From a virus: a stretch of DNA of 25,861 nucleotides. The DNA lies in IMG/VR virus record IMGVR_UViG_3300042868_006287, positions 1 through 25,861 of that record; one strand, written 5' to 3'. The translations under genes were made by a program, and so were the position numbers. The notes under the pieces were generated by a model. It saw nothing but the letters and a program-made list of their open reading frames with translations, was not told where the DNA came from and did not search any database. This document shows positions 13,897 to 25,442 of this stretch, piece after piece (the first letter of the stretch is position 1; each line of letters begins with the position of its first letter).

Positions 13897-15993
13897 TTAC
13901 CGCCTCCCATCAGCTCTGATATCAATTCTAGGAGCGCCAAGCTGCCACTGTGTATTTAATTGATTTGAGTCAATCTTAAATATCATCTGCCGCCCGCGCA
14001 TGCGCGTGAATATTTGACCCGTAAACTCTTCGGTTATAACGTAGGTACTGCCCTTGAGGACAGAAGCTGACGCGTTGCTGGTAGTGCCCGAACCAGAGTT
14101 GGACAATCCAAACAAAGTCATGGTAACCGCAGGAACAGCACCTGCAGGGGAATTTGTAGAATCTCCAAACGTCAGATCAGGCAACACGCGCCACACAAAT
14201 GCAAAATTGTGCCCATCACCTATGTCCAGTTCCGAGGAAGAAATGTAAGCATTAAGTGCAAGGCTTGTAGCTGTTTCATTATCATTTAAACCGTTCTCAT
14301 GCTCAACAATATTACGTGTGTATGTTGCAGCCAAAGGATAGTCACGCAGACCTGAATCAAGCCACGCTGACCGTGCCATCGTGCCGTAATACCAGATTTT
14401 TTCTACATAGTTATAGATGACGTAGCGGTCAACAGCTGTGCTGTTTTTTGAACAATAGAACCACCATATCTCATTAAAACCTTCATTGACCCCAGCAAAG
14501 ACTTGCAGATTTTGCTCTTTATTAATGTCTGTAAAAATAAACCGACGCAGATCACAGTTGAGTGTTTGCACACGGCCGTCATAAGTGTAAAACTTATCTA
14601 TCCCCATCCAGTACACAACACCGGAGGCTACAGCTACCGCATTGGGCCCATAAATAGAAATGCCATCACCAAGAAGCTGAGATCCCCAAACAAAAGGAGG
14701 ACCTAGATACTGCAAAGAATACAAAGCTGAATCGGTAAACACAACAATCTCTTGCCGCGTCTGTGCTGTGGTAATAATTTCAGAGCCATTGGATAAACGC
14801 AAACTTCCCGCTTGGTTGGTAGCGGTGGGTGTCCAATTAAAAGGATCCTCTTGCCCGCACCAACGGATTAACATTGGATCTAATGTTGCACTGCCGTAAT
14901 CATTTACGCCAAATGTTAAAATAAAACGAGAGGTGTCTGAAACAATTAAACTGTTTAGTGTTGTTGGCACGTCCACAATTAAAGACACAGAGCCTGTGCC
15001 TGAACTAGCCGTATTGACTACTGCGCCAGTGCCATCAAGCAATTTAAATGTTAAGCCGTTTACCTCAAACACATAGTACGTAGTAGCCGCAGACACGCCT
15101 ATTGGCAAAGAACCGCCAGAAAACTGCAAAGCCGCGCCCTCCGTGTATACAACAGTTGAGGTTACAAGGGTAGGTGAAGCGTTAGTAAAGGTTACCGTGC
15201 CGCCAAGAGAGTTAAGAAGCACACCACGGGTTGTTAATGTAGGTGCCTCCCAATAATACAAACCCCCACCGCGAGGATTAAATACTAAATCTTCACCAAA
15301 GTTTTGCTGGCTCCACAAACGTAAAGCACCAAAGACTGTAGCAACAGGAGCGCCATTACCCCAAGTACCAAGACCCCACGCACCCGCACCCCAGCCTGTT
15401 AATACTTGTTGAATTTCTGGGCCAACATTTATTTCATAAGCTGCAACAACCGAATTGCCTCCTCCGGCTGCAGTAGCATCCGTTGCGTTGGCTGTAGCCG
15501 TAGCCGTAAATGTATAAGTGTTAGCGTCAACAACGTTTAAAATTTGATAGTTTGCGTTAAGAACAGCCGCCGTTATATTGCCGCCCAAACCAGTTGCACC
15601 ACTAAAAGTTACAAAATCATTTGTATTAGCACCGTGAGAAGTGTCAGTAACTGTGATAACAGCAGAACCGTTTGTAGCTACAAAAGGGTTGTTATTAATT
15701 GTGCTAGTAACCCGGAGGGGTGTGATGTCGTAATAAGCGCCGCCGTTTTCTAAATAAAACTTAAGGTTTGTACCAACACCAATGATGTTTTTACTATTAA
15801 GTAAGACCCAGTTCCACAAAGACCGGCATACACCTAAAAAAGTATTGGTAGAAATGCGTTCCCAACCGCCAATTACTTCGGGATTACCCTGACGAAAGCG
15901 AACCTTGTCGGCTTCGTACCAACCGCCTTCCGTGGTGTATCGCGTGTTCTCTTTATTCACGCCCGGCTTGAACAGGATTTTTTGTAATGGCAT
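13897..15993 (-). CDS. Large phage tail nozzle/hub-like structural protein
   Basis: I start this 698-residue protein at ATG 15993 (MPLQKILFKPGVNKENTRYT), where AGGA from the upstream TAGGA stop lies six bases away; a TTG at 15999 extends the frame by two residues. The opening, continuing EGGWYEADKVRFRQGNPEVIGGW, is highly conserved in podovirus-like environmental phages. The body is beta-rich, with Ser/Thr/Gly insertions near residues 100-190 and 275-340, and segments like ALYSLQYLGPPFVWGSQLLG and VYWMGIDKFYTYDGRVQTL that resemble beta-propeller blades. That architecture, with size and position, suggests the nozzle or hub of a short tail, comparable in role to T7 gp12 or P22 gp10; I cannot confirm homology. 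Near residues 199-213 it carries a Trp-Gly cassette also seen in the repeat fibre. Confidence 0.75.
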   Translation of the reverse strand: MPLQKILFKPGVNKENTRYTTEGGWYEADKVRFRQGNPEVIGGWERISTNTFLGVCRSLWNWVLLNSKNIIGVGTNLKFYLENGGAYYDITPLRVTSTINNNPFVATNGSAVITVTDTSHGANTNDFVTFSGATGLGGNITAAVLNANYQILNVVDANTYTFTATATANATDATAAGGGNSVVAAYEINVGPEIQQVLTGWGAGAWGLGTWGNGAPVATVFGALRLWSQQNFGEDLVFNPRGGGLYYWEAPTLTTRGVLLNSLGGTVTFTNASPTLVTSTVVYTEGAALQFSGGSLPIGVSAATTYYVFEVNGLTFKLLDGTGAVVNTASSGTGSVSLIVDVPTTLNSLIVSDTSRFILTFGVNDYGSATLDPMLIRWCGQEDPFNWTPTATNQAGSLRLSNGSEIITTAQTRQEIVVFTDSALYSLQYLGPPFVWGSQLLGDGISIYGPNAVAVASGVVYWMGIDKFYTYDGRVQTLNCDLRRFIFTDINKEQNLQVFAGVNEGFNEIWWFYCSKNSTAVDRYVIYNYVEKIWYYGTMARSAWLDSGLRDYPLAATYTRNIVEHENGLNDNETATSLALNAYISSSELDIGDGHNFAFVWRVLPDLTFGDSTNSPAGAVPAVTMTLFGLSNSGSGTTSNASASVLKGSTYVITEEFTGQIFTRMRGRQMIFKIDSNQLNTQWQLGAPRIDIRADGRR
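15354..15396 (-). repeat. Trp-Gly cassette (GWGxxAWGxxxWG) in nozzle-like protein
   Basis: The coding sequence here gives GWGAGAWGLGTWGNG. The spacing GWGxxAWGxxxWG is identical to two blocks in the repeat fibre gene at 21297-22577. Sharing of this exact spacing between different virion proteins of one phage suggests a common module. Confidence 0.7.
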
Positions 15994-16001
15994 GGGCAAT
16001 C

Positions 16002-19794: not shown

Positions 19795-19854
19795 TTACGG
19801 TGTGTCGTAGGCGGTGATAAGTTCGATCCAAAGGTCTGGGGAATAGGTGCTCAT
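19795..19854 (-). CDS. Candidate 19-codon mini-ORF between fibre genes
   Basis: On the minus strand ATG 19854-19852 overlaps the tail-fibre stop as ATGA. It is followed by 19 sense codons, giving MSTYSPDLWIELITAYDTP, and TAA at 19797-19795. That stop is part of TAAGGAG, the ribosome site of the next gene. A ribosome leaving the fibre gene could thus pass through the mini-ORF to the adhesin. The N-terminus MSTYxPDxW resembles the start of small phage proteins that are usually longer, so it could be a truncated remnant. This rests on recall and on the start/stop geometry only. Confidence 0.4.
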   Translation of the reverse strand: MSTYSPDLWIELITAYDTP

Positions 19855-21287
19855 TTTTCAATCGCCTTTTTGATTTCTCGGACTTCTTCTCTTAGCTCTT
19901 TAATAGCTTCAATCAGAAGTGGAAGCGCTCTCTCATACCTAACTGTAAGGTATTTTTCGTCGATTGGAGCAGGGGCAACAATTTCTGGCAAAATTGCTTG
20001 CATTTGTTGAGCAGATACGCCAGCCTCACGCTGTACCTTGTACCCCAGAGCTTGGGCTATTTCATTGGCCTCATAGTAGAAACCATCAAGGCTGCACAAC
20101 TTATCAAGCGCATTTTCAATTTTACCCAGACGCGTTTTTAAACGGTCGTCAGAGTAGTACGCGGTGATGTTGTTGGTCGCACGAATCTCACCAGCAGTGC
20201 CAGAACCGGCTGTGCCCACACCAACTGAATTGAATTGCGAGTTTTGTGACGTGCTGGTAAACGTGGCTGCTGAACCCGATGCGTTACCTGTTAAAGAAGC
20301 TGTAATTGTCCCAGCAGAAAAGTTACCCGAGCCATCACGCGCAACGATTGCGGACGCGGTATTTGCATTGGTTGCTGTAGTTGCTGAGTTGCTGACTTTT
20401 AACGCCGTGGAAATTGTTGCCAGCTTGGTGTCCACAATACCAGCAGAAGCGTTGATGTCTGCATTGACAATCACCCCTGCGGCAATACTTGTTGCGTTTC
20501 CAACTGAAGTTACATCTCCGGTCAGGTTGGCGTTGGTAACCACCGTAGCTGCATTACCAACTGAAGTTACGCCCCCAGTAAGGTTAGCGTTTGTAACAAC
20601 TGTAGTCGCGTTACCAACGGAAGTAACCATACCCGTCAAGTTGGCGTTAGTAGTTACGTTACCAGCGGTTAAGCCCGAAGCAGTGCCTGTCAAGTTAGTG
20701 GCTGTGCCGCTAGAGGGTGTACCCAATGCACCGCCGTTAACGACAAACGCCCCGGAAGAACCTGTATTTATCCCAAGTGCAGTAGCTACGCCAGTGCCAA
20801 GAGATGTGATGCCTGTACCGCCAGAAGCAGCCGGGAGCGCAGAACCCAAAGTCAAAGAAGTGAGGTACGAAACCGCATCAACAACGTTTGTGCCATTGTT
20901 GTAAACCAATGTGGCCTTGCCCGCAGGGACAGATATGCCTGTGCCTGAAGTGTTCTTAATCGTTTTGGCTCCAGTGCCGGTGTTATTAATAAGGTAAAAC
21001 TTCTCAATCTGGCAACCAGAACCAAGTATTAAATTACGTACAGAACCAATACCCGTAGAGCTTTCTGTTATGTTTAAACGTAAATTTCTGGCCGCTTGGG
21101 TTGTTGCAGAGTCTGTTAATGTAATTGTTACATCTGCGTCCGTTGCAAAATCTACGGTGGCAGAGCCTGTAATGGCCTCTCCCAAAACTGCATCACCCAG
21201 ATTTGTGTTGGTAAGGGTACCCCATTGACCTGAGTTTTGCCCTGTTTCAAGCAACTCTATTTTAAGTGCTGACCATGTTGATGCCAT
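19851..21287 (-). CDS. Tail fibre with C-terminal S74 intramolecular chaperone
   Basis: This 478-residue fibre protein opens with MASTWSALKIELLETGQNSG and QWGTLTNTNLGDAVLGEAIT, a virion-attachment region common in phage fibres. The shaft is Ser/Thr/Gly/Ala/Val-rich and includes three copies of a 19-residue repeat (TNANLTGxVTSVGNAxxVV, residues 213-269). The C-terminal 100 residues are an S74-type intramolecular chaperone. They contain YYSDDRLK with Ser379 and Lys384, the serine-lysine dyad at the family's usual spacing of five, followed by LDGFYYEAN, GVSAQQMQAILPEIV and LIEAIKELREEVREI. Known S74 domains trimerise the fibre and then cut themselves off before Ser379, leaving about 378 residues. 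The ATG at 21287 follows AGGAG by six bases. Confidence 0.92.
   Translation of the reverse strand: MASTWSALKIELLETGQNSGQWGTLTNTNLGDAVLGEAITGSATVDFATDADVTITLTDSATTQAARNLRLNITESSTGIGSVRNLILGSGCQIEKFYLINNTGTGAKTIKNTSGTGISVPAGKATLVYNNGTNVVDAVSYLTSLTLGSALPAASGGTGITSLGTGVATALGINTGSSGAFVVNGGALGTPSSGTATNLTGTASGLTAGNVTTNANLTGMVTSVGNATTVVTNANLTGGVTSVGNAATVVTNANLTGDVTSVGNATSIAAGVIVNADINASAGIVDTKLATISTALKVSNSATTATNANTASAIVARDGSGNFSAGTITASLTGNASGSAATFTSTSQNSQFNSVGVGTAGSGTAGEIRATNNITAYYSDDRLKTRLGKIENALDKLCSLDGFYYEANEIAQALGYKVQREAGVSAQQMQAILPEIVAPAPIDEKYLTVRYERALPLLIEAIKELREEVREIKKAIEK
20481..20651 (-). repeat. 57-bp tandem repeat (three units) in tail fibre shaft
   Basis: Three consecutive 57-base units encode TNANLTGMVTSVGNATTVV, TNANLTGGVTSVGNAATVV and TNANLTGDVTSVGNATSIA (residues 213-269 of the fibre). 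They differ mainly in a few residues, indicating tandem duplication. A trimeric beta-rich shaft is likely. Confidence 0.85.
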
Positions 21288-21296
21288 TTTTAACTC

Positions 21297-22577
21297 CTAA
21301 GTCGTTGCAATGGCAGTCCAACCTGCCGTTTGCGTGTTGCCGATATTTTGCCAGTTTGCAGTCTGTGTATTATCAATTATTTCCCAGAATGGTCGTGCAG
21401 TCAACCCATCTGTGCCTGTTGCTAACTCGTTAATAGACGCAATAAACGCCGCCGCTGCTACTAAGGTATCCGCGCTTACCGCTGTTTCCGTTACCGATGC
21501 ATTAAAACTTGCTTGCGCCGTAATTACATCTGCCCCCGTAGCGGTTTCTGTAATTGCCGCATTAACTACAACTACCGCCGTTACTGCATCTGTGCCTGTC
21601 GCCGTTTCTTGTATATTTCCAAAATATACAAGACTTCCGGTTATGTTATCTGTTCCGGTTGCTGTCTCTCCAACTGTAGCCGCGTACACAGGTAGGCTTG
21701 TTATGTCATCTAATCCAGTGGCTGTTTCGGCTACCAATACTGCAAAATTAACAGTAGAAACAATGGCATCGCTACCCGTACTTGTCTCGGTAACAGAAAC
21801 TCCAACACCGTTTGACCCCGTTATACCGTCTGTTCCTGTAGATAATTCTGAAACAGATGCTACATAAATGGGTACAGAACTAATCGCATCCGTACCTGTA
21901 GCTGTTTCGCTAACAGAAACTCCAACACCGTTTGACCCCGTTATAGCGTCTGTTCCCGTTGCACTTTCAGTAACCGAGGAACTCAATGTAAGTAATGAAT
22001 TAGCGGCATCTAATCCTGTAGCTGTCTCGGTAACCTGCGCCGCAAACGCTGCTACCGCTACAACATCGTCTGTTCCCGTCGCCGTTTCGCTTACTGTTGG
22101 ATTAAGCGTTAAAGTAGAAACTACCGCATCAGTAGCAGTGGCTAATTCACCTTCTCCGCCCCACGAATTACTACCCCAAGCGCTTTCGCCCCAGCCCGTG
22201 CCCGCTATTACCGCATCGTATACTTCACCACCTACTGTTGCATCTGTACCCGTGGCAGTCTCAGCAATTACCGCGCCTACAGCTATGACCGAAGAAATTG
22301 CGTCTGTTCCTGTGCTTGCCTCTGTTACCGTTGCAGCATATAGCGGCCCGCCTTCTGTAGCGTCTGTCCCTGTTGACGTTTCCGTTATGCTTGAGGTAAA
22401 TATCTTACCCGCTGCAATTACATCTGATCCAGTAGCTGTCTCGCTAACAGCGGGGGTTACACTTAATGCAGAAACAACTGCGTCTGCTCCAGTGGAGGTT
22501 TCGGCTATGGTGCTGTCGTAGGCGACAAAGCCACCCCAACCGCTGTCACCCCATGCGCCGTCACCCCACCCAGCCAT
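21297..22577 (-). CDS. Repeat-rich fibre or spike-like protein with Trp-Gly cassettes
   Basis: The 426-residue protein starts with MAGWGDGAWGDSGWGG. Eighteen units of about 20 residues follow, each close to xxxVxETATGTDAIxxxxxx. A second Trp-Gly cassette (GWGESAWGSNSWGG) takes the place of one unit after the fifth. The repeats are rich in Thr, Ala and Val and have no charged core, suggesting an elongated beta-solenoid or fibre. The tail has a short repeat (IxNTQTAxW twice) ending TAIATT. I recognise no enzyme or chaperone domain. Its place between small virion-type genes and the S74 fibre fits a tail or capsid fibre. The ribosome site (GGCGG) is weak. Related-looking repeats occur in uncharacterised environmental phage proteins. 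Confidence 0.75.
   Translation of the reverse strand: MAGWGDGAWGDSGWGGFVAYDSTIAETSTGADAVVSALSVTPAVSETATGSDVIAAGKIFTSSITETSTGTDATEGGPLYAATVTEASTGTDAISSVIAVGAVIAETATGTDATVGGEVYDAVIAGTGWGESAWGSNSWGGEGELATATDAVVSTLTLNPTVSETATGTDDVVAVAAFAAQVTETATGLDAANSLLTLSSSVTESATGTDAITGSNGVGVSVSETATGTDAISSVPIYVASVSELSTGTDGITGSNGVGVSVTETSTGSDAIVSTVNFAVLVAETATGLDDITSLPVYAATVGETATGTDNITGSLVYFGNIQETATGTDAVTAVVVVNAAITETATGADVITAQASFNASVTETAVSADTLVAAAAFIASINELATGTDGLTARPFWEIIDNTQTANWQNIGNTQTAGWTAIATT
21384..22520 (-). repeat. 60-bp-period tandem repeat array (18 units) in the fibre gene
   Basis: Eighteen protein units with a 20-residue period are encoded, each centred on ETATGTD or a close variant. The array is interrupted once by a Trp-Gly cassette (about 22155-22197). 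Units diverge mostly at flanking positions, except for one pair 120 bases apart that is nearly identical (21791-21836 and 21911-21956). The array is coding and in frame throughout. Confidence 0.9.
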
Positions 22578-23587: not shown

Positions 23588-24433
23588 TTACCTCACTGGC
23601 AAGCGAACTTGACCATCCTGATAAGCATCGCCACGTTGTTTGGCATCGCCCAAATTCTTCAACAACCCTAACGCTTCTTTGTATTTTCCGTCGTACAACG
23701 CCATCATGTCGGCCTCACCCTTCATGTAGGTGTACGCCTCAACCAGCGAGCCATACAAAAGCACCGTATCAAAGTTGTCGCCAAGCCATGAAGTACCCGC
23801 TGTAACAATAGACTCAGGGTAATAATAATAGTGCAGTTCCATTCCATAGGCAGCATTAGGAGTTGGCCCTACTATGAACACTAGCTCGTTGTCATTGCCA
23901 CTATTAGGCCCAAAAATAGCATAGTGTTTTGGTTTAGCCCGTTGCAAAGGGTTTGGATATGCTTCTCGAATAAAGTTAACGTCTCGATTAAGCAAATAAG
24001 TGTAATCGCCCTGAAACGTTAAAGTGCCAGATACAGTTGCCGTATTAGCAATTGTGAGCGTAACTGTAGTTCCTACAATCGTAGAAACCACCGCACCCAC
24101 TGCAATCCCTGTCCCAGAAACATACATTCCCGCCACAATATTCGTAGCACTGGACACTACAACGGTAAAAGCTGCCGCCGTTCCTGTTGCAGTTGGTGTT
24201 GCCACAGCGTACACGGCTAAAGAATAAGTAGAAAGAAAATCTGATGGACAATCTACATACTTGTTGCCCGGGGTCATAAATCCTGTTACGTTTTGGCGCA
24301 GATTAGCAACTTGAACACTATTGTTGATTCGTTGTTCTGCTTGTTTTACAAAAACAGGAATCTGCGCTACAAAAGATGTATCGGTATTTTCGGTATACGC
24401 TTGGATAGACGCGCTTAATTCAGAATAGTTCAT
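23588..24433 (-). CDS. Head-tail adaptor-like protein with inserted beta domain
   Basis: This 281-residue protein begins MNYSELSASIQAYTENTDTS and has a helical N-terminus (VFVKQAEQRINNSVQVANLR). After DCPSDFLSTYSLAV (62-74) comes an insertion at about 78-141, a Thr/Val/Ala-rich beta segment (GMYVSGTGIAVGAVVSTIVG). The conserved scaffold resumes at DYTYLLNRDVNFIREAYPNP, then ELHYYYYPESI, then a helical C-terminus. The scaffold resembles adaptor or neck proteins of podoviruses and similar phages. The inserted module looks like a beta-sandwich that varies between relatives. Start ATG 24433 overlaps the zinc-ribbon gene's stop as ATGA. The ribosome site is weak, again consistent with coupling. 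Confidence 0.8.
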   Translation of the reverse strand: MNYSELSASIQAYTENTDTSFVAQIPVFVKQAEQRINNSVQVANLRQNVTGFMTPGNKYVDCPSDFLSTYSLAVYAVATPTATGTAAAFTVVVSSATNIVAGMYVSGTGIAVGAVVSTIVGTTVTLTIANTATVSGTLTFQGDYTYLLNRDVNFIREAYPNPLQRAKPKHYAIFGPNSGNDNELVFIVGPTPNAAYGMELHYYYYPESIVTAGTSWLGDNFDTVLLYGSLVEAYTYMKGEADMMALYDGKYKEALGLLKNLGDAKQRGDAYQDGQVRLPVR

Positions 24434-24762
24434 GTGATGCTCGTCGTAACTGTTCCAAGCATAGCGCCTGCTACTAAATTTCTTGCAGGAGGCATGGGCC
24501 GCATGCCAATACTTGCAAAAGAAGTATCTCCCGTGTTCCCTACATAAACGTTAACGCCTAGTCGCCCCTCGGGACGCGGCTCCAACAACGCCTGAGGCTC
24601 GTTTAACGTGCGCTTGGGCTCAAGCTGCGGATGTTTAGGCTCATAGCACTCATCGCAGACCTTAAACCCTGTCCACTCTTTTTTAAGCTGATTTAGCTTG
24701 AACTGCTGACCACACTGATCACACAGAGCAAGACCAAATTTGCCAGAAGTGTAACCAGCCAT
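24430..24762 (-). CDS. Small zinc-ribbon virion-region protein
   Basis: This 110-residue protein has a zinc-ribbon at residues 14-39: CDQC and CDEC, separated by 18 residues. The following EPKHPQLEPKRTLNEPQALL is proline-rich. The C-terminal half (VNVYVGNTGDTSFASIGMRP) is beta-like. I recognise a widespread unannotated phage family with the same pattern (YTSGKxALxxCDxCGxxxxLxxLxKEWxGxxVCxECYEPKHPQ). Its location between two adaptor-like genes suggests a small neck component or assembly factor. The four cysteines strongly support zinc binding. Start ATG 24762 overlaps the preceding stop by one base (TGATG). Confidence 0.85.
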   Translation of the reverse strand: MAGYTSGKFGLALCDQCGQQFKLNQLKKEWTGFKVCDECYEPKHPQLEPKRTLNEPQALLEPRPEGRLGVNVYVGNTGDTSFASIGMRPMPPARNLVAGAMLGTVTTSIT

Positions 24763-25442
24763 CAGTAACTCTCCGTGTACGTAGGTACTGCAAAATAACT
24801 AGACCGTTCTCTGTCCTCTGCCGCTGCCCGAGCAAACTCTTCCTCATAAAACTGCTTGAGCATAGCAATACGATCTGGCGCTTTTTTAACAGCCAAATAG
24901 TATGCCAAACCTGCAGTCAAACAAGGCAGAAAGCGGAAAGAAATGTCCGCTGTATTGGTAACTGCACCGGTTTCTTGTATACGGCGAATGCCATAGTAGC
25001 GAAAGATGTACTGCTGCGTTGCATCGGGCGCGGGATACAGAAACAGCTTTGCCGGCACCGTGCGCTGCACATAAAACTGTGCAGGACGAGAAGGAGTGTA
25101 TTTATTTGGTGTGTGCAAATACTCTGCACTGCCAATCCGATCAATCGTAATATCTTGTTGATCAGATTGACCAGAATTAGTACGTATTACCGCAGACAAC
25201 ACATCTACTGTGTCATCCGGCAACGTGTACTCAAACGTATTAGCAACTAAGACCACCTGCCGCTGCTCAATCGTATACAGATTTAATCCGCGATTAGCCC
25301 ACTCAGCAAACATCAAGTTCAATGAGCGACGTGCAGTTAAAACGTCATACCCATCCCGAATCTGCAAGCCGCAGCGTTCATACGCTTCGGTGATGATCTC
25401 ATCGAAGTCCGGGTTGTAGGAAGAGACGCCAGAGGTAGTCAT
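24762..25442 (-). CDS. Head-tail adaptor / tail tubular A-like protein
   Basis: The 226-residue product begins MTTSGVSSYNPDFDEIITEA, then YERCGLQIRDGYDVLTARRS, a mostly helical region. The middle contains FEYTLPDDTVDVLSAVIRT, and later FRYYGIRRIQETGAVTNTAD, then a helical C-terminus (LAYYLAVKKAPDRIAMLKQF). This order resembles the adaptor protein that joins portal to tail in short-tailed phages (comparable to T7 gp11 or P22 gp4 in role). Homology to either by sequence alone cannot be confirmed here. It is the first adaptor-like gene in transcription order, after the capsid-region gene cut by the window edge. No strong ribosome site is visible (TATTAAAAA before ATG), so coupling to the preceding gene is likely. 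Confidence 0.82.
   Translation of the reverse strand: MTTSGVSSYNPDFDEIITEAYERCGLQIRDGYDVLTARRSLNLMFAEWANRGLNLYTIEQRQVVLVANTFEYTLPDDTVDVLSAVIRTNSGQSDQQDITIDRIGSAEYLHTPNKYTPSRPAQFYVQRTVPAKLFLYPAPDATQQYIFRYYGIRRIQETGAVTNTADISFRFLPCLTAGLAYYLAVKKAPDRIAMLKQFYEEEFARAAAEDRERSSYFAVPTYTESY

Follow-up and report, generated by a model that had tools for sequence, protein, structure and literature searches.

A tryptophan-glycine triple common to a phage tail nozzle and a repeat protein: a candidate dock for trimeric fibres

In phage SU10, the short-fibre dock loop of the nozzle carries three tryptophans (Trp839, Trp847 and Trp857) that form a quasi-threefold star and hold the trimeric short fibre, and Tyr23-Ile24-Tyr25 of each fibre chain clamp this loop, as described in the part of the source drawn on here (PMC9509320). 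We confirmed the dock and clamp residues in the SU10 sequence KM044272. In LUZ24, gp56 (L286) has W363, W370 and W377, spaced exactly 7 and 7 and lying right behind the propeller, as does the SU10 dock region, and by its sequence the fibre N-terminus of gp57 has a SU10-like look. Trimeric fibre N-termini are also held by the tail hub in T7 and P-SCSP1u; in the passages used from these two papers, the docks are folded domains on adaptor and nozzle (a jelly-roll in T7), with no triple-aromatic loop (PMC6702177, PMC10575957). A hub-protein loop that holds a trimeric fibre N-terminus is described for phage Mu (gp48, residues 133-155), in the excerpt used of PMC11915804. Mu differs from the case presented here in that no aromatic triple was seen in the loop and in that its tail is contractile.

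We analysed a stretch of marine phage DNA of 25,861 nucleotides, hereafter the window (IMG/VR record IMGVR_UViG_3300042868_006287, positions 1 to 25,861), in which a nozzle protein and a repeat protein carry the same aromatic-glycine triple (Table 1). The likeness to SU10 gp17, as far as the excerpted account of that dock goes, is that three tryptophans lie in one loop of a beta-propeller nozzle, that one dock serves one trimeric fibre in SU10, and that the nozzle folds are alike (PMC9509320). Three aromatics in a single loop were indeed found in the window nozzle. In contrast, the gaps between tryptophans are 8 and 10 residues in SU10 and 5 and 5 in the window, the SU10 tryptophans are not each followed by the glycine that makes the window triple Trp-Gly, and a repeat of the SU10 triple in a second protein was not noticed, whereas the window triple recurs in the repeat protein. 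The positions differ as well, the SU10 dock occupying residues 839-857 of 1005, near the C-terminal end of the propeller, and the window triple residues 202-214 of 700. Because its place in the chain differs, we did not file the window triple as a SU10-type member, although by analogy it may work like the SU10 dock loop.

Table 1. Features of the window discussed in the text
Feature	Position	Strand	Description and basis
Tail nozzle protein, 700 aa, beta-propeller	13897..15999	-	phrog_3287; PDB sequence matches; fold matches; relatives SU10 gp17, VP1 nozzle, P22 gp10
Aromatic-glycine triple of nozzle	15358-15396	-	GWGAGAWGLGTWG, aa 202-214 of ORF 13897-15999; proposed fibre dock loop
Adjacent fibre, C-terminal Peptidase_S74, 'GxxxxxWGxxxN' N-terminus	19851..21287	-	S74 match; N-terminal family; start 9 bp past repeat gene end
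N-terminal 67 aa of adjacent fibre (MASTWSALKIELLETGQNSGQWGTLTNTNLG...)	21087..21287	-	Proposed clamp; N-terminal family alignment; phage-record searches
Repeat protein, 426 aa, 20-aa repeats, two triples	21297..22577	-	Proposed fibre-carrying rod
C-terminal Trp ladder of repeat protein	21300..21386	-	W about every 11 residues, '...W..I.(D/N)TQ.A.W..I'
Internal triple of repeat protein	22158-22196	-	GWGESAWGSNSWG, aa 128-140; separates two 20-aa repeat blocks
N-terminal triple of repeat protein	22533-22571	-	GWGDGAWGDSGWG, aa 3-15 of ORF 21297-22577

The nozzle, the repeat protein and their common motif

The 700-residue protein is a podovirus tail nozzle of the SU10 gp17, P22 gp10 and VP1 gp16 class. 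Its C-terminal half matched solved nozzles by sequence (9nwi_Y, E 9.1e-21; 8zkk_O, E 4e-10). An AF2 model made with 43 sequences (mean pLDDT 63.8) gave fold matches to the nozzles of Pa223, SU10, VP1, P22 and T7, with Foldseek E values of 2.6e-18 to Pa223 and 3.3e-17 to SU10, and VIA-align Z values of 15.8-19.5 against solved nozzles. The protein matched PHROG 3287, in which nozzle-like virion proteins are annotated just as head-and-packaging virion structural protein. The SU10 dock loop juts out from the edge of propeller blade 1. In the window model, the cassette loop precedes an LRLWSQxNFGED strand and lies within residues 194-265, which were modelled at a pLDDT <50, falling to about 25 at the cassette itself. 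Incidentally, PHROG 28581 was matched, in different parts of its profile, by a window protein at 24430-24762 (-) and by residues 101-180 of the nozzle, and CRP-901 gp53, which has a WG triple at its very C-terminus, matched the start of this PHROG. The SU10 adaptor family PF24175 was matched by two separate window proteins (23588-24433 and 24762-25442, both on the minus strand).

The repeat protein matched no Pfam, PHROG or NCBIfam model, and tblastn searches of the phage collection, using either the full-length protein or its N-terminal 23 residues as query and with the low-complexity filter on, returned no match. Solved relatives of the class-B protein and of the cassette peptide were sought in the PDB, and none was found. 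The predicted model was poor (mean pLDDT 49.5), with paired strands about every 20 residues that were interrupted at both cassettes. The earlier note had offered a shared beta-strand plug as one reading of the motif, and this found no support, both predicted models leaving the cassette as low-confidence coil.

A six-frame scan of the whole window found GWGxxAWGxxxWG at exactly three sites, all on the minus strand, which bore out the initial observation of one copy in the nozzle-like protein and two in the repeat fibre. The looser pattern WGx3WGx3WG returned the same three sites and no other. When the residues of each protein were shuffled 200,000 times, the motif arose 0 times in the nozzle and 0 times in the repeat protein. 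A trivial explanation would be convergent low complexity or lineage composition, with no shared function: both genes are Gly-rich and their products probably exposed, and, tryptophan having a single codon, similar DNA may arise easily. The shuffling counts, the conservation of the triple across nozzles and a contrast between plus- and minus-strand reading frames (see below) all disfavour it, and we regard it as hardly tenable. The occurrence of the motif is not due to chance.

Conservation of the triple and the count of three

The triple was kept in all 80 of the closest nozzle relatives, taken from viral contigs, one of them having GWS in place of the first GWG. In 24 of these 80, however, the stretch from the second WG to the third W was 5-13 residues long instead of 3. 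The general form across relatives was [WYF]Gx3[WYF]Gx3[WYF]G, present in nearly all examined nozzles, and far nozzles retained the triple as WG, YG or FG. It was of W type in HTVC027P, DSL-LC04, MinM2, CRP-901 and HTVC023P, and of Y/F type in phiM5, OctaDB2 and the Manatee Spring phage ctjtQ328; Y/F-type nozzles retained other tryptophans. No triple was found in the LUZ24 nozzle at the place corresponding to the window cassette, nor in the nozzles of L567 and L570, and a scan using the MinM2 nozzle gave no match.

At least one strict triple was present in the repeat ORF of 78 of the 78 loci L201-L278, mostly at residues 3-15 and again after one repeat block, a count biased by the derivation of two of the six search peptides from the cassette. 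Close relatives of the nozzle gene and of the repeat gene alike thus had the motif, which thereby withstood in part the refuting condition set in the earlier note, absence from such relatives. Repeat-protein cassettes remained 3/3, part of this evidence coming from loci chosen with a 3/3 pattern, and they did so also where the nozzle of the same locus had a long second gap. A WGx3WGx3WGG scan found at least 120 stretches, with 134 in-frame matches among the matches listed, in several kinds of tail protein. Summed over eight sets and with nozzles excluded, N-terminal cassettes were counted in 211 of the 8288 plus-strand ORFs and, on the minus strand, in 6 of 8807, and in many phages with a nozzle triple a repeat protein begins with such a motif. 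The claim of identical spacing held within this genome and failed in part of the relatives. Because the spacing varies in nozzles and that of the repeat-protein cassettes does not change with it, we ruled it out as the key property: what is conserved is three aromatics.

A possibility was that the exposed aromatics bind host glycans directly. Patches of Trp and Tyr are common in lectins. Yet the nozzle cassette and the repeat-protein N-terminus vary unusually little for a site of host recognition, and we consider direct glycan binding very improbable.

The relatives' repeat proteins held up to 7 triples. Those of L163, L110 and L116 had a separate folded N-terminal stretch followed by 6-7 W triples, one every ~40 residues, with a WG..N fibre gene adjoining. 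The C-terminal Trp ladder was shared by repeat proteins whether the nozzle was of W or of Y/F type, and had 1 to 6 steps among 141 non-redundant ORFs; this variation in step count ruled it out as another triple. Separately, in about 20 long proteins a WGx3WGx3WGG triple was found 58-74 residues from the C-terminus (L083, L092, L096, L097, L100, L101, L109, L114, L115, L122, L130, L141, L149, L158, L164, L167, L170, L172, L183 and L185), and the sole one with a match among those scanned matched PHROG 5107, labelled amidase. Perhaps these long proteins make up a further nozzle family whose dock is terminal. Equating their triples with the SU10 dock site was considered and dropped, the SU10 dock being ~150-165 residues from the end.

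The number of aromatics was far more constant than their spacing in nozzles. In the gathered loci, the plus strand had 347 period-5 W[GN] runs of three and 82 of two, and no run reached four; the minus strand had a single run in all. Once redundancy was removed, 166 runs of three and 46 of two remained, again without any of four or more. The looser [WYF][GN] pattern gave 13 runs of four among 474 non-redundant runs, 12 of which were a chance Phe-Asn five residues ahead of a W triple; the remaining one, in the MJing1 nozzle, was a genuine F/Y quadruple. Most of the two-step runs in nozzles were triples whose second gap was longer, or belonged to an unrelated later strand. A fixed number with variable gaps is explained if a threefold guest requires its dock to offer three aromatics in one chain.

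These counts also bear on another alternative, namely that the triple is a local structural element only, its Trp-Gly turns capping or linking beta-repeats or stiffening an exposed loop, with no partner. In its favour, the repeat-protein cassettes lie at the N-terminus and at the junction of two repeat blocks, and nozzles tolerate 5-13 residues between the second and third tryptophans. What it leaves unexplained is that runs end at exactly three, never at four, that a gene lying several kilobases from that of the nozzle has the element too, and that a fibre gene neighbours this second gene. We hold it to be unlikely.

The adjacent fibre and the aromatic classes

S74 fibres are trimers, and the fibre encoded next to the repeat protein matched Pfam PF13884 (Peptidase_S74) with 35.8 bits, the gathering score being 22. 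A 30-sequence alignment of its N-terminal family showed M1, G16, W22 and G23 to be invariant. No clear relative of this WG..N region was found in the PDB, and weak matches to scavenger receptors were taken as chance. The window fibre and SU10 gp16 each have a short N-terminal region ahead of the shaft, and we found no sequence relation between the two.

A WG..N fibre lay downstream of the cassette-bearing repeat ORF in 158 of 189 loci, within 500 bp in 152 and within 50 bp in 132. The remaining 31 loci included 26 from the OctaDB2-seeded set, and three ran off the contig. Counted per nozzle cluster, a downstream fibre was present in 23 of 29 (W, 14/15; Y/F, 8/12; unclassed, 1/2). Among 50,697 phage records the WG..N N-terminus was rare (15 records, found as 10 + 5), and 14 of these 15 were also among the nozzle-homologue records. 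The exception, the siphophage Tunturi_4, has a WG..N-like N-terminus, with no aromatic triple in the scanned parts. The nozzle triple and the WG..N fibre occurred together in 13 of 18 named phages examined. As for the others, ct7L0027 had the nozzle triple alone, its record covering only about 5.5 kb upstream, 023Pt_psg01 had a WG..N fibre and a nozzle in which we could recognise no triple, and neither a nozzle [WYF]G triple nor a WG..N fibre was seen in SU10, LUZ24 and Venkman.

We then compared aromatic classes, using 69 nozzle clusters obtained from 400 nozzles at 75% identity. Repeat proteins located via the C-terminal Trp motif often began with a triple of the nozzle's aromatic class. W-type repeat proteins accompanied 12 W-nozzle clusters and 0 Y/F-nozzle clusters, while YG-type repeat proteins accompanied 12 Y/F-nozzle clusters and a single W-nozzle cluster, which proved on reading to be F-type (FGISAFSQTAFG). 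F-type N-termini, for example MFGISAFAEAPFASL, were found in several repeat proteins of W-nozzle phages too. Starts like MFGISAFAEAPFASL, with an aromatic every 5 residues and FA or FG rather than WG, were seen in the repeat proteins of L012, L038, L044, L063, L068-L070, L075, L077 and Venkman (L583). At the DNA level, the WG-triple pattern had at least one exact match in 13 of 20 W-nozzle records, nozzle included, and 0 exact matches in 17 Y/F-nozzle records over the searched extent. Base composition does not explain the class match, since G+C was similar in the window and Y/F sets and tryptophan outside the cassette was more frequent in Y/F-type nozzles (3.1% versus 2.0%).

One could take such a match, with its 12 W/W and 12 Y/F-YG clusters and no Y/F-nozzle cluster with a W-type partner, as a sign that the repeat protein docks straight onto the nozzle by stacking of like cassettes, as the earlier note had proposed, all the more so as neither G+C nor the tryptophan frequency beyond the cassette accounts for it. 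However, the match is close to one contrast, because the nozzle tree puts W nozzles and all but one of the Y/F nozzles into two main groups. We thus rejected class co-variation as independent proof, the cluster-level Fisher p of 2.7e-6 being an overstatement. Moreover, F-type N-termini accompany W nozzles, and repeat proteins with up to 7 triples fit poorly to one nozzle site. Direct docking of the two proteins is accordingly quite improbable in our view, and a third, trimeric fibre is the likelier partner of both.

A dock-and-rod proposal and its meaning

We lean, with somewhat better than even confidence, towards the explanation that each [WYF]Gx3[WYF]Gx3[WYF]G triple is a compact dock loop for a trimeric fibre, that the guest is the neighbouring S74-type fibre, and that the repeat protein is a rod with two docks. 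The proposal builds on the motif, its conservation, the fixed count of three, the gene order and the co-distribution with the WG..N fibre type. The complex, the guest and the stoichiometry we infer by analogy, the SU10 dock being taken from its paper. Against the proposal count the low-confidence models at the cassette, the differences from SU10 in gaps and chain position, the phages and loci that break the pairing of triple and fibre, and the F-type starts in W-nozzle phages; joint descent may also be enough to explain why motif class and gene order go together. We cast the cassette of the nozzle in the role of a fibre dock, and the repeat protein in that of a rod for further fibres, because a triple suits a threefold guest and accounts for a constant number at variable gaps. 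One chain would offer three near-equivalent aromatic side chains, and each subunit of the trimeric fibre would grip one of them. Each nozzle subunit would provide one dock, and two further docks would be placed along the rod of 20-residue repeats in the repeat protein. The guest would be the S74-type fibre encoded right downstream of the repeat gene, gripping via its N-terminal GxxxxxWGxxxN region. The suggestion that the motif was a docking module rather than chance thus survives as the best-supported reading, favoured by the SU10 dock loop, the fixed three and the gene neighbourhood, while the exact spacing on which it had been based is not a conserved property.

A broader reading, which we put forward tentatively and hold to be less likely than not, is that the repeat proteins are modular fibre racks. 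They would be solenoid rods with one to seven triple docks, any of which could take up a trimeric receptor-binding fibre, and would form branched multi-fibre arms on short tails with the same plug as the nozzle, the W and Y/F types being two plug standards kept in step. Our searches of open-access PMC papers returned no title or abstract treating the triple as a general motif, which does not prove that none exists.

If the proposal is true, a 13-residue sequence signature would mark the attachment sites of trimeric fibres in many uncultured marine and freshwater phages, and would tell fibre carriers among unnamed tail genes. It would also explain how a short tail can bear more fibres than there are subunits in its sixfold nozzle.
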